A stretch of 64,000 nt of DNA from an uncultured Bryobacteraceae bacterium. Lineage in GTDB: Bacteria; Acidobacteriota; Terriglobia; Bryobacterales; Bryobacteraceae. The DNA is taken from assembly GCA_938027685.1 (NCBI GenBank), contig CALJAM010000024.1, positions 62,001 through 126,000 of the forward strand. The letters are read 5' to 3'. Shown here in pieces: positions 3,396 to 57,995 of this stretch (positions within the stretch are counted from its first letter, which is position 1; each line of letters begins with the position of its first letter). Under the pieces are notes generated by a model. The model saw nothing but the letters and a program-made list of their open reading frames with translations, did no database searches and was not told where the DNA came from. The position numbers were made by a program, and so were the translations under genes.

Positions 3396-4379
3396 ATGCG
3401 GGTGGAGTTCACCGGGCAAGGCATTTACCTCGCGGACCTTGACCTGTGGCTGGATCCGCGCGAGCCGCGTCCACGAGCTTGGATTTCGCACGCCCACCGC
3501 GATCATGCCGGATGCGTGCACGGAGAGGTTTACGCAACGGCGGAAACGCTGGCGTTCTACCGGCTCCGACATGGCGATGCGCTCGCGGGCTCCGCTCTGC
3601 GCGAAGTGCCCTACGGCCAGACGTGGGAGCTGGCCGGGGCAAGGCTCGCAGCCTATCCCGCCGCCCACGTGTTGGGCGCCGCTCAGTTGCTGGTCGAATG
3701 GCGCGGCCGCCGCTTGCTTTATACTGGCGACATCAAGCTGCGTCCGCCCCTGTGCGGCCGCGCCACCGAGATCGTTCAAGCAGAGCGCCTGATCGTCGAG
3801 TCCACCTTCGGACTGCCGATCTTCCACTTCCTGACGCGCGAGCAGGCGCGCGAGCGCATCGTGGCCTTCGCGCGCCAGGCCTTGGAAGATGGCCGCCGTC
3901 CCGTCTTGCTGGCTCATGAGCTCGGGCGGGCGCAGGAGGTGGCGCACGTCCTCTGCCAAGCCGGCGTGCCCGTGGCGGTCCACTCGGCGGCCGCTCGCTA
4001 CCTGCCCTCGTATGCGGCGGCGGGCTTTCCCGCCCCGGGCTGGCTGGAATGGACTGGGGACGCGCCGCCTGAGGCTGCGATCATCGTGCCGCCGCGGTTG
4101 CGCGCCTGCCTTGCGCTGCGGGGCCTGCGCCTGCGCATCGCCTACGTTTCGGGTTGGGCGGCGCTGGACAACGCCCGAGCGCGAACGGGCGCCGAGGAGC
4201 TGATCCCTTACTCCGACCACGCCGACTTCGAGGAGCTGCTCGAGCTGGTCGAAGCGATCGGCCCGCAGGAAGTGGACGTGGTCCACGGTTACACGGACGC
4301 TTTTGCGCGCATCCTGACGTTGCGCGGCAAGCTGGCGCGGGCCCCCGAAAGACCGCGCCCGGTGGGGGACAACGGCTGA
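3396..4379 (+). CDS. ligase-associated DNA exonuclease (MBL fold)
   Basis: This is a 327-residue metallo-beta-lactamase-fold nuclease of the ligase-associated exonuclease family (TIGR04122 type). Metal-binding motifs are in order: SHAHRDHAG (residues ~34-42), AAHVLGAAQ, YTGDIKLR, ESTFGLP and YSDHADF. The family is known as a partner of an ATP-dependent DNA ligase in bacterial repair operons, usually with an Lhr-type helicase and the endonuclease PdeM. The ligase starts inside its stop codon (ATGA at 4379). The helicase and PdeM are not in this window. Confidence 0.9.
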   Translation: MRVEFTGQGIYLADLDLWLDPREPRPRAWISHAHRDHAGCVHGEVYATAETLAFYRLRHGDALAGSALREVPYGQTWELAGARLAAYPAAHVLGAAQLLVEWRGRRLLYTGDIKLRPPLCGRATEIVQAERLIVESTFGLPIFHFLTREQARERIVAFARQALEDGRRPVLLAHELGRAQEVAHVLCQAGVPVAVHSAAARYLPSYAAAGFPAPGWLEWTGDAPPEAAIIVPPRLRACLALRGLRLRIAYVSGWAALDNARARTGAEELIPYSDHADFEELLELVEAIGPQEVDVVHGYTDAFARILTLRGKLARAPERPRPVGDNG

Positions 4380-53443: not shown

Positions 53444-54874
53444 TCAGTACTTGGGCACGCTGGGGTCCACCTGATCGCTCCAGGCGAGGATGCCGCCGCG
53501 CAAGTTCCAGACTTTGCGAAAGCCCGCCTGGCGAAGCAGGTTCACCGCCTTCGCGCTGCGCTGGCCGCTGCGGCAATGGACCACGATCTGCTCGCTGGAA
53601 TCCAGCTCGTGCAGTCGACGAGGCAATTCGCTCAGCGGGATGAGTCGGGCGCCGGGAATGCGACAGATGCGGTGCTCGTGCGGCTCGCGCACGTCCACCA
53701 GCACCACTCGCTCGCCTTGATCCATCAGATCCTTCAATCGCCGGGGTTCGATTTCCCACTCCGAGGGGCTCTCGAGCTCCTGGCGGCGGGGAACGCCGCA
53801 GAATTCCCGATAATCGACGAGCTCGCGAATCGTTGGCCGATCACCGCACACCGGACAATCGGGATCGCGGCGCAGCTTGAGCTCGCGGAAGCTCATATTC
53901 AGGGCGTCGTACAGGAGCAGACGGCCGACCAGCGGGCGACCGATGCCAAGGATCAGCTTGATCGCTTCAGTGGCCTGGATCACGCCGATAACGCCCGGTA
54001 GGATGCCCAGGACGCCACCCTCCGCGCAACTCGGCACCAGCCCCGGGGGCGGCGGCTCGGGATACAGGCACCGATAGCAGGGCCCGCCGGGTGTCGCAAA
54101 GACGCTGACCTGCCCCTCGAAGCGAAAGATGGATCCGTAAACGTTGGGCTTGCCGAGCAGCACGCACGCGTCGTTGACCAGGTAACGGGTAGGGAAGTTG
54201 TCGGTTCCGTCGACTACGATGTCGTAGTCGCGCAGGATTTCGAGCGCATTCTCGCTGGTCAGCGCCACGTCATGACAGTCGACGCGTACGCCGGGATTGA
54301 GAGCCCGGATTCGCTCCGCCGCCACTTCGAGCTTCTTGCGCCCTACGTCTGCGGTAGTGTAGAGGACCTGCCGTTGCAGATTGGTGGCGTCCACCGCGTC
54401 GTAATCGACCAACCCCAGGCGTCCCACTCCGGCCGCCGCCAAGTAGAGAGCCAGGGGCGACCCCAAGCCTCCCGCGCCTACCACCAGCACCCGCGCCTGC
54501 CGGAGCTTGAGCTGCCCCTCCAGGGCGACCTCAGGCATGATGAGGTGACGGCTGTAACGCAGAATCTCCTCTTGACTCAGGCCGGGGGAACTCACCGTGG
54601 CGGCGCCGCCGGCGACGCTCGGTACGATGGAAACGGTGTCCGCATCGCCAACCGGAGTCGCATCGCGCTGCAAATAGCGGATGTCCTCATCGTTCACGTA
54701 CACGTTGACGAAGCTGCGCAACTTGCCTTCCGGCGTAAAGAGGTGCCTGCGGAGCTCTGGGTATTGCTCCGTCAGCTGCTCCAGCAGCTCGCCTACGGTG
54801 GCCCCGGGCACTTCGACTGAATCGCGTTGCTCGACGTATTGCCTCAGAGGACTTGGAATCAGGATCCTTGGCAT
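53444..54874 (-). CDS. CysO-like sulfur carrier fused to MoeZ-type adenylyltransferase and rhodanese
   Basis: The protein has 476 residues in three parts. Residues 1-90 are a ubiquitin-fold carrier close to mycobacterial CysO, with FVNVYVNDEDIRYL and SIVPSVAGG ending in Gly89-Gly90. A linker (AATVSSPGLS) follows. Residues ~101-365 are a ThiF/MoeB E1 domain, with VLVVGAGGLGSP (129-140), GTDNFPTRYLVND and zinc cysteines in CYRC and CPVCG. Residues ~375-476 are a rhodanese domain with the active loop CRSGQRS (Cys434). MoeZ adenylates the carrier's C-terminal glycine and loads sulfur, but here that glycine is followed by more protein. ATG 54874 has a GAGGAG ribosome site and overlaps the JAMM gene by 16 bases. 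Confidence 0.93.
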   Translation of the reverse strand: MPRILIPSPLRQYVEQRDSVEVPGATVGELLEQLTEQYPELRRHLFTPEGKLRSFVNVYVNDEDIRYLQRDATPVGDADTVSIVPSVAGGAATVSSPGLSQEEILRYSRHLIMPEVALEGQLKLRQARVLVVGAGGLGSPLALYLAAAGVGRLGLVDYDAVDATNLQRQVLYTTADVGRKKLEVAAERIRALNPGVRVDCHDVALTSENALEILRDYDIVVDGTDNFPTRYLVNDACVLLGKPNVYGSIFRFEGQVSVFATPGGPCYRCLYPEPPPPGLVPSCAEGGVLGILPGVIGVIQATEAIKLILGIGRPLVGRLLLYDALNMSFRELKLRRDPDCPVCGDRPTIRELVDYREFCGVPRRQELESPSEWEIEPRRLKDLMDQGERVVLVDVREPHEHRICRIPGARLIPLSELPRRLHELDSSEQIVVHCRSGQRSAKAVNLLRQAGFRKVWNLRGGILAWSDQVDPSVPKY

Positions 54875-55314
54875 TTCTCCTCCTCGCTCGCCGCGCCGGG
54901 CACACAAAAAGGCACCTGCGCGGCGGATGTCAACTCGTCATTGGGCTGCCAGCATCTGGCTGCGGTAAACCGACCCGAACGAATGGAAAGAACCAGATAG
55001 CAGTACCAAGGGCACGCTTCCTGAAGATCGGTGCGCGAGAAATAGGGGTCTTCGTCGGGGTGGGAATGGTAGATCCCCAACAGCTCCCAACCGCGCTCAC
55101 GCGCCGTCCGTTCGACCTCGAGGAGCTCGCGCGGATCCACACGGTAGCGCGTGCGCCGGGAGCCCGGCCAGACGTTGGTGAGCTCGACTGCGGCGCGCAC
55201 GCGCCGGAGTTCGTCTTCCCGCGTGCCCAGCATCGCGCCGCAGGCCTCCTCGGGATAGCAGCGGCCGGTGTGCTCGAGCATGCGCCGCCAGGGCTCGTAC
55301 TCAATGACCAGCAT
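54859..55314 (-). CDS. mec: JAMM/MPN metallopeptidase (Mec+-like)
   Basis: The protein has 151 residues. The JAMM zinc site is complete: a Glu at 22 or 23 (CYPEEACGAML), H83 and H85 in YHSHPDEDPYFSRTD, S93 and D96. In Mycobacterium, Mec+ cuts cysteine from the CysO-cysteine adduct. Here it is placed between cysM and the CysO-MoeZ fusion and overlaps both (14 and 16 bases), so the three proteins are co-made. It could also cut the fusion after Gly90 to free the carrier; that is inference. Confidence 0.92.
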   Translation of the reverse strand: MLVIEYEPWRRMLEHTGRCYPEEACGAMLGTREDELRRVRAAVELTNVWPGSRRTRYRVDPRELLEVERTARERGWELLGIYHSHPDEDPYFSRTDLQEACPWYCYLVLSIRSGRFTAARCWQPNDELTSAAQVPFCVPGAASEEEKCQGS

Positions 55315-56251
55315 CCCAGAACTCTTCGCTCAGATATCTCTGCCCGTCGTCGCAAAGCACGGTAACGATCACGGCGGTGCGCCCTTCGGCGGCCAGCCGG
55401 TGCGCAAGTTCGAGCGCCGCAGCCACGTTGGCGCCGGAGGAGATCCCAACCAGCAGACCCTCCTCGCGCGCCAGTCGCCGTGTCATCTCGTGGGCGCGCT
55501 CAGTCTCCACCCAAATCGTCCCGTCGGCAACGCTCGGGTCCCAGATGCCCGGTACGATGGCCGAATCCATGTGCTTGGCGCCCTCGATGCCGTGAAAAGG
55601 GGACGCGGGCTGCACGGCCCAGCACTGCACGTCCGGCTTGTGACGGCGCAGCCGGCGGCTCGTTCCCACGAAGGTTCCGCTGGTCCCCAGCACGGCTACG
55701 AAATGAGTGATGTGCCCTTGTGTCTGGCGGAGGATCTCGACGCCCGTAGTGCGGTAATGAGCTCGCCAGTTGGCCGGGTTGTTGTACTGGTCGGGGTAGT
55801 AATAGCGCTGAGGATCGGCCTGGTAGATCCGCCGGCACTCGCGGATCGCGCCATCGGAGCCCTCGGCCGGATCGGTCAGGATCAGCTCCGCGCCGAAAGC
55901 GCGCAAGATGCGCTGTCGTTCCCGGGAGACGTTGGCGGGCATGCATAGCCGGACGCGGTAGCCGCGTGAGGCCGCGATCATGGCGTAAGCAATGCCGGTA
56001 TTGCCGCTGGTCGCGTCCAGAAGGATGCGATCGGGTGTTAGAAGTCCACGCCGCTCGCCGTCTTCGATCATGGCGAGAGCGGCCCGGTCTTTGACCGAGC
56101 CGCTGGGGTTGAGGAATTCGGCCTTGGCGTAAAGTTCTACGCCTTTCAGGCCCGCACTAAGCCTGCGCAAGGGCAGGAGCGGCGTCCCGCCGACGCGGAA
56201 ATGTGTCGCTCCCTCGCCCTTTACCCGTTTCCGCTGTCTCTCGGCTGTCAT
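55301..56251 (-). CDS. cysM: CysM-type cysteine synthase
   Basis: The protein has 316 residues of the PLP fold-type II family. The PLP lysine is K54 in LNPSGSVKDRAALA. The phosphate-binding loop is in DATSGNTGIAYAMIAASRGY. YPDQYNNPANWRAHYRTTG and GTSGTFVGTSRRL resemble CysM of actinobacteria, which uses O-phosphoserine and the CysO thiocarboxylate as sulfur donor. That substrate choice is inferred from the neighbours. ATG 56251 is chosen; an in-frame ATG at 56329 overlaps the SCP2-like stop and would give translational coupling but adds 26 atypical residues. Confidence 0.9.
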   Translation of the reverse strand: MTAERQRKRVKGEGATHFRVGGTPLLPLRRLSAGLKGVELYAKAEFLNPSGSVKDRAALAMIEDGERRGLLTPDRILLDATSGNTGIAYAMIAASRGYRVRLCMPANVSRERQRILRAFGAELILTDPAEGSDGAIRECRRIYQADPQRYYYPDQYNNPANWRAHYRTTGVEILRQTQGHITHFVAVLGTSGTFVGTSRRLRRHKPDVQCWAVQPASPFHGIEGAKHMDSAIVPGIWDPSVADGTIWVETERAHEMTRRLAREEGLLVGISSGANVAAALELAHRLAAEGRTAVIVTVLCDDGQRYLSEEFWDAGH

Positions 56252-56322
56252 GATCCCCGGCGCAAGCCACAGTGACTTGACGCGCGCTCTCGTCCGCCCC
56301 CCTGCCGTCTCTGGGCGCCGCC

Positions 56323-56883
56323 TCAACATTCGGCCTGAGCAAGTCGCTGAACGGCGGCCTCATCCAACTCTTTGTCCTCCACGAAAGCCGTCGGAACCTG
56401 CCTGGCGTGCCTCAGCATTACGTTGGCCATAATGATGGTCCGTGCGGTGAAGCGCGGCCGGTGGTACACGCTCTCCAATGGTTCGATGCGCACCAAGCGT
56501 CGCGCGAACGCGCTGGTGGGCGTCAGCGTCCCCTCGAAAAGCTGACGGGCGGTCCGATAGTTGCTCGTGACCATGAAGTCGGGCGCCTCCTCCAGCGGGA
56601 AATCGCCGACGGCGAGCTTCCTGACCTTGCCGCGCTCGAGCTCAAGCCGGATCCTGGCTTCCCAGCTGCCCGCCCATAGGCTCCGCAGAGGGCCGGGGAG
56701 TTCACGAATGTGGTAGTCCAGACGCAGGGAGTAATCCACGCTCAGCTTCCGAAAATACTCGTCCGTGCGTCTGGCCGCCTGAATGGTACGGGTCACCACA
56801 CGCACCCACTCAGGCGAAAGAAAGAGCAGCGGCCGGCGGGAGCCGCTCGCCCTCTGCCCGTCAAACCCACAAGAGCGTTGCAT
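56323..56883 (-). CDS. SCP2-like (sterol carrier fold) protein, tentative
   Basis: The protein has about 186 residues. After an arginine-rich start, LSPEWVRVVTRTIQAARRTD begins the folded part. WEARIRLELERGKVRKLAVG and VTSNYRTARQLFEGTLTPTSAF resemble SCP2-type lipid-binding domains, which usually hold a hydrophobic ligand. ATG 56883 lies inside the end of the DsrE-like gene (23-base overlap); a later start is possible. It belongs to the sulfur/redox operon, but its role there is unknown. Confidence 0.6.
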   Translation of the reverse strand: MQRSCGFDGQRASGSRRPLLFLSPEWVRVVTRTIQAARRTDEYFRKLSVDYSLRLDYHIRELPGPLRSLWAGSWEARIRLELERGKVRKLAVGDFPLEEAPDFMVTSNYRTARQLFEGTLTPTSAFARRLVRIEPLESVYHRPRFTARTIIMANVMLRHARQVPTAFVEDKELDEAAVQRLAQAEC

Positions 56884-57283
56884 GCTCGCTGGAACCCTTC
56901 CTGAGGAATTCACCGAGGCTGCAGACTTCCTCCACCCCGGCGACCAATTCGGATCTCGCGATGTTGTGTAGCGCCATGGCCGCCGGGCAAACGAGTACCT
57001 GTCCGCCGAGTTTCAATACCCCGTCCAGCAGTTCGGAGATGGTTGGGACGGTCCCCGCCTGCAGCGCCTCCTGGATACGCGGACGTAACCACTCTGCCGT
57101 CTCCTCTCCCAGCTCGTCCGTCCGCCCGGAGCGGAGGCGAACCACCGCGCCGTGGCTGAAAAGCAGTGTCACCGGCCGGCCCGAAGCAAGGGCGGCGGTC
57201 GCCAACTGCAACGCCCCCAGCACGCGTTCGTAAGACGCGCTGACCAGCACCAGACCGAGAGGCGCCCCCGAAGGCGTCACCAT
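56861..57283 (-). CDS. DsrE-like sulfur-relay protein
   Basis: The protein has 140 residues from ATG 57283 (MVTPSGAPLGLVLVSASYER). It has the DsrE/F alternating fold: a first strand GLVLVSASYERVLGALQLAT, then RPVTLLFSHGAVV, and GGQVLVCPAAMALHNI with one cysteine where sulfur-relay members carry theirs. Such proteins often shuttle persulfide sulfur. It starts 5 bases after the hemerythrin gene ends and overlaps the SCP2-like gene. The in-frame upstream extension to 57439 lies inside the hemerythrin gene and is rejected. Confidence 0.8.
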   Translation of the reverse strand: MVTPSGAPLGLVLVSASYERVLGALQLATAALASGRPVTLLFSHGAVVRLRSGRTDELGEETAEWLRPRIQEALQAGTVPTISELLDGVLKLGGQVLVCPAAMALHNIARSELVAGVEEVCSLGEFLRKGSSEHATLLWV

Positions 57284-57288
57284 CTTGT

Positions 57289-57795
57289 TCAGGCGGTCGG
57301 CGTTGCTGATCTGCCGCGAATCGTGGCAGCCCACTCGAGAAGCGGCACGCCGGCGTTGCGGCTGGCCTCCAGATTCGCCGCTATCCGCTGCAAGTCTTCG
57401 GCAGGCAACCTTTCGGCAAACAACCCGAGACCGTCGCATTCAACGGGATGAGGAAGCACGTCCCTCCGAATCAGCTCGGCGAGCTCTTCGACCTCGTGTT
57501 CGAGAAGTTGGCCCTTGCCAAGGACCTCCGCCAGACGCTTGGCGGCCGCAATTACTCGGTCGTGCGCTCCGATCAGACCGTCGATATAGCGATCCCCAAA
57601 GAATTGCCTGAGCGCGGGGTAAAGGCTCTCCTCTTCAAAACGAAAGTGGGGTCCCGTCAATTTGTCCAACTGGACGAGGATCTCCAGGGCGTCCTCGACC
57701 CTGCGCTCCTTGACGGCAGCCAGGAGGGCCAGCAAAGCGTCGCGGACCTTGACATGGTCGGAGCGTAGTTCTTCGATGGGGCTGACGATCGACAT
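57289..57795 (-). CDS. hemerythrin HHE domain protein
   Basis: The protein has 168 residues from ATG 57795 (MSIVSPIEELRSDHVKVRDA). Di-iron ligands of the HHE fold are all visible: the His in SDHVKVR, HFRFEEE, the His in AHDRVIAA and HPVECDGLG. HHE proteins bind O2 or NO or help repair iron centres. It is the first gene of the operon running to 53444. A strong promoter and a GGAGAGG ribosome site precede it. Confidence 0.9.
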   Translation of the reverse strand: MSIVSPIEELRSDHVKVRDALLALLAAVKERRVEDALEILVQLDKLTGPHFRFEEESLYPALRQFFGDRYIDGLIGAHDRVIAAAKRLAEVLGKGQLLEHEVEELAELIRRDVLPHPVECDGLGLFAERLPAEDLQRIAANLEASRNAGVPLLEWAATIRGRSATPTA

Positions 57796-57813
57796 ATTCG
57801 ACCTCTCCGATAG

Positions 57814-57843
57814 AGTATACCGCCTTAGCCAGTGGCCTGTCAA
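57814..57843 (-). promoter_or_regulatory. consensus sigma70-type promoter of the hemerythrin-CysM-Mec-CysO/MoeZ operon
   Basis: On the minus strand TTGACA (57843-57838), an 18-base spacer and TATACT (57819-57814) form a near-perfect housekeeping promoter. The expected start is near 57807, giving a leader of about 12 bases that includes GGAGAGG. Confidence 0.8.
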
Positions 57844-57850
57844 CAGGTAT

Positions 57851-57861
57851 TTGATATTCAA
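57851..57861. promoter_or_regulatory. short palindrome upstream of the hemerythrin promoter
   Basis: TTGATATTCAA is a perfect TTGA/TCAA inverted repeat with a 3-base centre, 7 bases upstream of the -35. It could be a regulator site. The spacing is too short for a standard FNR/CRP site. Confidence 0.35.
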
Positions 57862-57995
57862 GATCTGCTTTACCGAAAAGCCCCATGCAGCGCACACCCT
57901 AACGGCCACGGCCCCGGCACGAGCCCCATCTCACCCCGGTCGGCGTTTGCGGAATGCTTCCACTGATGTTAGTCTCGACCTCCAGGAGGATGCCA

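Follow-up and report, generated by a model that had tools for sequence, protein, structure and literature searches.

The window analysed here, a 64,000-nucleotide stretch of DNA from an uncultured Bryobacteraceae bacterium, encodes on its minus strand (56329-53444, as read from the window sequence) a cysM-like gene, a JAMM gene and a gene in which a CysO carrier is fused through a Gly-Gly to an E1 and a rhodanese domain, in that order. The CysM-like cysteine synthase gene (55301..56329, minus strand; PF00291 E=1.7e-72; start codon not settled) overlaps the JAMM/Mec-type metallopeptidase gene (54859..55314, minus strand; 151 aa; PF14464 E=5.4e-23) by 14 bases (55301..55314), and this in turn overlaps the fusion gene (53444..54874, minus strand; 476 aa plus stop, from Pfam and the sequence) by 16 bases (54859..54874). 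A ribosome-binding-like GAGGAGGAG, read from the sequence at 54877..54885 on the minus strand, sits directly 5' of the fusion ATG, within the 3' end of the JAMM gene. An earlier, sequence-only reading had described the fusion at 53444-54874, its JAMM neighbour and the 16-base overlap, all of which held on re-reading; that both genes lie on the minus strand was absent from it. Further upstream on the same strand, positions 56323-57909 encode three proteins, one with no Pfam match, one weakly DsrE-like and one with a hemerythrin domain, whose genes possibly form one transcription unit with the operon.

Pfam divides the 476-aa fusion into ThiS (residues 4-90), ThiF (107-342) and rhodanese (377-467) domains. 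The CysO/ThiS-type carrier domain (residues 1-90; 54605..54874, minus strand; PF02597 4-90; 3dwg_C E=7.5e-16) is of the ThiS/MoaD type and ends in Gly-Gly, residues 87-90 reading VAGG. The last residue (93) of 3dwg_C, which we take to be M. tuberculosis CysO (cfp10A in the structure listing), aligns to Gly90, bearing out the earlier statement that the domain ends where free CysO ends; the 476-aa frame and the Pfam domains likewise confirm that 386 residues, comprising the E1 and the rhodanese, follow Gly90. A free C-terminal glycine is absent from the primary fusion product and would be present only with a cut. Gly89-Gly90 (54605..54610, minus strand), after which the cut is proposed, is invariant in 36/36 aligned fusions, and the linker AATVSSPG that follows (residues 91-98; 54581..54604, minus strand) is variable in length and sequence and has low pLDDT. 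The ThiF/MoeB-type E1 adenylation domain (residues 107-342; 53849..54556, minus strand; PF00899 E=3.8e-87), whose relatives among solved structures include Uba4 (6yub) and MoeB (1jw9), has the glycine-rich loop and the two Cys-x2-Cys pairs by which we recognise a MoeZ/MOCS3-type enzyme. C266, C269, C340 and C343 are invariant in 36/36 aligned fusions, as is Cys434 of the rhodanese domain (residues 377-467; 53474..53746, minus strand; PF00581 E=1.9e-21); we take the cysteine pairs and the rhodanese cysteine to have the roles usual for such enzymes. An AF2 model of the fusion (mean pLDDT 82.7, pTM 0.60) has ten-residue pLDDT means of 79-95 across carrier residues 1-80 and values <50 at junction residues 87-97. 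The 50 Foldseek matches listed for this model are E1-type enzymes and so tell no more than the sequence does.

The JAMM protein carries the motif HSHPDEDPYFSRTD, read in its translation (55027..55068, minus strand), together with Glu23. The pattern of this motif is matched by every JAMM compared, and the Glu plus HxH-x7-S-x2-D residues (E23, H83, H85, S93 and D96) are invariant in 25 aligned JAMMs; the nearest solved structure to the family profile (A1) is 2kcq. The CysM-like protein has a PLP cysteine-synthase fold and shares its operon with cysO and the JAMM gene; it scores 356 bits against TIGR01138 cysM, under the cut-off of 394, and its cysteine-making role and substrate are putative. At two other loci (L026:2279-3262 and L029:2279-3262) the CysM and rhodanese queries hit the same open frame next to the JAMM gene, the pattern expected of a cysteine-synthase-like protein joined to a rhodanese, and L197, L199 and L211 have a similar order.

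The host genome (3.93 Mb, 96.7% complete) has a single Prok-JAB match, the JAMM neighbour of the fusion. Two further ThiS-family matches were found, L001 (a ThiS ending GGG) and L003 (ending SGG), the latter 37% identical to the fused carrier domain and with no JAMM or E1 match in its 3.2-kb locus. The one other full E1 match, L005, has no rhodanese by Pfam. MoaE, whose presence in the genome we would expect for a carrier of the MoaD type, had no match in the host genome, in a search that finds it in 11/14 control genomes. A molybdopterin role for the fusion was set aside because MoaE was not found.

We collected relatives of the carrier domain from 297 Acidobacteriota genomes, of which 163 had matches; loci were taken for 30 of those matches and for 100 further stretches, which cover a subset of the 163 genomes. 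A scan of named genomes retained the best 80 of 590 relatives. Carrier, E1, JAMM, CysM and rhodanese were scored with profiles built from the loci. The junction was compared in 214 carriers (L003, L008-L137 and L168-L247), or 200 after removal of duplicates. [A/S]GG occurs in 200/200, as is partly expected because the detecting profile ends there. E1-fused carriers make up 94 of the 200, and the GG is kept in every one; the sequence-only reading had thought such fusions possible in other bacteria, and this collection supplies them. The residue after the GG of a fusion varies (S 37, A 34, T 11, V 6, G 2, N 2, R 1, K 1; n=94). For 89 fusions the linker length is 3-39 residues, with a median of 13; in the remaining 5 some 120-134 residues, comprising a rhodanese domain, lie between GG and E1. 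Alignment of the junction, a check proposed at the outset, gives a constant GG and a free linker: A88, G89 and G90 never change across 36 aligned fusions, and the columns after them do.

Carrier-E1 fusions are present in at least 69 of the 297 Acidobacteriota genomes, 5 of these having the other domain order, CysO-GG-rhodanese-E1 (L106, L108-L111), which perhaps had an independent origin. A sequencing or assembly artefact is rejected on this recurrence and on the fusions in other phyla. Among the best 80 of 590 named relatives, record titles place fusions outside the Acidobacteriota in KSB1, Caldithrix, Chloroflexia, Kiritimatiellae, Omnitrophica, Gemmatimonadota and two archaea (L236 and L226, which we take to be an archaeal record), and the named records closest in carrier and E1 bear the titles Bryobacteraceae, Solibacter and Solibacteraceae. 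Titles can mislead: L241 is titled Rhodanobacteraceae, yet, to judge by matching contig coordinates, the genome collection groups it with the Acidobacteriota (G316). The operon cysM-JAMM-cysO-E1-rhodanese recurs, with cysO either fused to the E1 or separate.

Separate carriers of this kind rarely stop at the GG when a JAMM gene is close by. There are 83 distinct separate carriers that extend 1 to 32 residues past the GG, most commonly by 2, and among carriers with a JAMM gene within 3 kb, 85 are fused, 67 tailed and 2 GG-ending (152/154 past GG). One of the two GG-ending cases is a second carrier beside a fusion, 2.1 kb from the JAMM gene (L071); the other (L242) is a true exception. Carriers with no JAMM gene within 3 kb comprise 9 fused, 16 tailed and 21 GG-ending. 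For 24 of these 25 fused or tailed carriers a JAMM is encoded elsewhere in the genome, the other being from G140; two of these JAMM matches are weak or partial (G131 1.9e-19, G301 7e-21). Several separate carriers (L052, L063, L116, L209, L240 and others) have cysteine-rich tails past the GG, such as AGGCCCCCCL and AGGSACCSCCPLL. Some loci or genomes (L071, L089, L085 in G291, L086 in G235) pair a fusion with a second close GG-ending carrier, nearby or elsewhere.

For the fusions themselves, whether a JAMM gene always accompanies them had been raised as a check: it lies within 3 kb of 85 of the 94 distinct fusions (the other 9 have no JAMM in the fetched locus) and somewhere in 68 of the 69 fusion-bearing Acidobacteriota genomes. 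A cysM-like gene is in the locus of 79/94 fusions, and both it and a JAMM gene within 3 kb accompany 77/94. In the exception, G140 (91% complete), no JAMM was detected; the contig stops at base 3752, a little upstream of the fusion. Thus the regular loss of the GG or of the JAMM, which the sequence-only reading had named as evidence against itself, is not what we find. It had likewise named a separate carrier together with an uncleavable fusion; of this pair, the separate carrier is present (L003, ending SGG).

We then used whole genomes to test the prediction that the carriers of JAMM-less genomes should stop exactly at the GG. Scoring at most 14 candidates per genome, as in the Chloroflexota scan below, we found a JAMM match in 137 of the 297 Acidobacteriota genomes: 124 with carrier and JAMM, 39 with carrier only, 13 with JAMM only and 121 with neither. 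Some of the matches counted as JAMMs are weak or partial (G131 1.9e-19, G301 7e-21, G026 9e-7, G220 6.9e-5), and with all candidates scored there was still no JAMM in G019, G128, G140, G153, G169 and G274. In the 39 carrier-only genomes plus G220, grouped with them given its weak match of 6.9e-5, 45 of 46 carriers stop at the GG, the exception being the G140 fusion. Over 166 carriers from 144 genomes, 105 combine a JAMM with a tail or fusion, 16 a JAMM with a GG end, 44 no JAMM with a GG end, and 1 no JAMM with further residues. A tail is not obligatory where a JAMM is present, as 16/121 carriers in JAMM genomes are GG-ending and so is 3dwg_C. In the named-genome scan (best 80 of 590), 20 of 21 genomes behind loci of the scan have a JAMM, and the JAMM-less one, that of L247, has two carriers, both GG-ending.

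The association of fusion with JAMM across the 297 Acidobacteriota genomes has a Fisher p of 4e-27, a value that ignores kinship. A kinship-aware test of JAMM against tail leaves 3 independent contrasts on supported branches, of which at most 2 are informative, and therefore no significance is attainable; the tie in Acidobacteriota is confounded by clade. Many of the carriers in genomes lacking a JAMM resemble CysO only remotely (scores as low as 24 bits), and the closest, at ~100 bits, all belong to one family (f18).

In 301 Chloroflexota genomes we found the carrier in 245 (E up to 1e-8) and a JAMM in 240, with 228 genomes having both and 17 the carrier only. Of the best 30 Chloroflexota loci, 28 have carriers that extend past the GG, one of them by just two extra glycines, and 3 are fused to E1 (L263, L267 and L269). 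Seven carriers from 5 of the 17 genomes with no detected JAMM, whose completeness was not given, comprise 4 GG-ending and 3 tailed (two in G373, one in G606). Either the relation between GG and JAMM is looser in Chloroflexota, or JAMMs were missed.

Another way to view the fusion is through the history of the E1. We built a quick tree from 154 E1 domains (88 with a fused, 64 with a tailed and 2 with a GG-ending carrier). With all branches retained it needs no fewer than 24 changes between fused and split, and collapsing branches with support <80, <90 and <95 brings this to 22, 11 and 5, respectively; with labels shuffled, the uncollapsed tree requires 43 to 59 changes and the one collapsed at 80 requires 36 to 50. 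The state thus tracks kinship yet flips often, with fused and split forms interchanging at least 5 times and probably about 22. Frequent flips are expected if both forms yield identical mature proteins. In 72 split pairs, the carrier and E1 share one frame in 24 and do not in 48.

From these comparisons we think it quite likely that the fusion is a JAMM-processed pro-carrier, most likely for cysteine synthesis. The product of the fusion gene would be the pro-carrier, and the JAMM encoded upstream would cleave Gly90-Ala91 to give CysO with a free Gly-Gly and an E1-rhodanese protein equivalent to MoeZ. The E1 would then adenylate Gly90, with the rhodanese providing the sulfur, and the CysO thiocarboxylate would pass this sulfur to the CysM-like enzyme to form a CysO-cysteine adduct. 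The same JAMM would hydrolyse the Gly-Cys bond, freeing the cysteine and returning CysO for another round. The distribution data support the sequence-only reading's proposal of a JAMM cut after Gly90, which would yield carrier and E1 in a predicted 1:1 ratio, although the cut itself and the JAMM as cutter are the parts that we infer. Residues past the GG would be trimmed for free because the pathway already needs a post-glycine cutter, which would explain the repeated gain and loss of short tails and whole-enzyme fusions.

The existence of L003 would allow a different arrangement, in which the fused domain has lost its carrier function, staying attached for docking or regulation, and the E1 charges the separate carrier with its free GG end. 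There is a parallel in another ubiquitin-like domain fused to ThiF, for which a role unlike that of standalone ThiS has been argued (Iyer 2006, PMC1779556, in the portion available). However, a docking domain would have no need of the GG that all 94 fusions keep. Fused and split forms also interchange some 22 times, split relatives at the same operon position have no attached domain, and L003 itself is only 37% identical, with neither JAMM nor E1 match in its 3.2-kb locus. We regard this arrangement as very unlikely. Very unlikely too, in our estimation, is that the fusion cuts itself or is cut by some general protease, with the JAMM only freeing cysteine from the CysO-cysteine adduct. The known role of Mec+ would by itself account for a JAMM gene adjoining cysM, the tailed Chloroflexota carriers with no detected JAMM (G373, G606) would fit, and M. 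tuberculosis MoaX is cut at Gly82/Ser83 by a protease not identified in that study (PMC4326299, available text). A general protease would, however, permit tails in JAMM-less Acidobacteriota, where 44 of 45 carriers are GG-ending, and MoaX is inactive in E. coli, from which its authors infer that the cutting system is absent there (PMC3227635, available text).

A separate E1 could also come from an internal translation start, with full-length fusion as a minor or inactive by-product, and a GTG codon (Val94) does lie within the linker. Met is present in just 4 of 89 linkers (ATG was counted, GTG and TTG left out), and an ATG start is therefore not conserved; on this count we rejected an internal start as a general route to free E1. 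Such a start would moreover leave CysO still lacking a free end, and we give this explanation hardly any weight.

In the thioquinolobactin pathway of Pseudomonas (QbsE/QbsD), a JAMM trims two residues after the carrier GG, whereas a JAMM-processed pro-carrier of the present kind would lose a whole enzyme. The nearest pathway is that of Mycobacterium, in which CysO, MoeZ, CysM and Mec+ make cysteine by the cycle set out above (PMC3227635, available text). The same four protein families occur here and the carriers align up to the GG. However, Mycobacterium CysO is free-standing and GG-ending (3dwg_C), with moeZ lying far away (Rv3206c versus Rv1335; PMC3227635, available text), whereas here the MoeZ protein begins with CysO, and its gene overlaps that of the JAMM. 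The cutting chemistry has precedents in the accessible text of two papers: HvJAMM1 cleaves SAMP1-MoaE, an engineered fusion, exactly after the last Gly (PMC4443979), and DR0402 cleaves MoaD-MoaE (PMC8832034). In these proteins and MoaX, as here, a carrier is joined via GG to a larger protein and a cut at the last Gly frees it, but there, going by the same partial texts, the partner is MoaE, the carrier's target, while the carrier of the present fusion is joined to the enzyme that activates it, beside a gene for a cysteine-synthase-like protein.

The architecture has also been described. A 2024 survey places MoaD-MoeB and MoaD-MoeB-rhodanese fusions (clusters 356.1-356.3) under molybdopterin and names Acidobacteria as a possible donor to Archaea (PMC11237513). 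Those clusters share the architecture found here; the accessible text gives them a few sentences, in which we found no discussion of JAMM, CysM or processing. A Thaumarchaeota Ubl-E1 fusion has a ubiquitin-like domain ahead of the E1, as here, but rhodanese is absent and a JAMM link is not stated in the available portion (PMC2948915). Operon type 4c of Iyer 2006 (PMC1779556) contains ThiS/MoaD, E1-rhodanese, JAB and cysteine synthase, includes one Acidobacterium and is the same operon type as here; the accessible part of that paper proposes in general that JAB frees fused ThiS/MoaD and mentions no carrier-E1-rhodanese fusion for 4c. Architecture and cutting chemistry are thus each known separately. 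In the literature searched, which left most subscription journals outside its scope, the text available held no account of this fusion's processing, and we did not find the two combined, the tails of split carriers or the tie to JAMM. New in the present case are that the cut would remove the carrier's own E1, and that residues past the GG go with a JAMM.

More broadly, we lean towards the view that JAMM-partnered CysO-type carriers in Acidobacteriota, Chloroflexota and several other groups, including archaeal records, are generally precursors, with extensions ranging from a single residue up to a complete E1. The JAMM that releases the product would also be an obligatory maturation protease, leaving the carrier end free of selection and fusion and fission recurrent. 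This offers a simple, testable rule, that post-GG residues on a CysO-type carrier imply maturation by a JAMM, and would account for fusion between a carrier and its activating enzyme being possible in the first place. It also carries a warning, in that ~480-residue proteins named molybdopterin MoeB may be cysteine-synthesis polyproteins. If true, the general view would make this a bacterial counterpart of ubiquitin-precursor processing within ordinary cysteine metabolism, and ubiquitin-like precursor processing would be a routine biosynthetic step, carried out by the pathway's own product-release enzyme.
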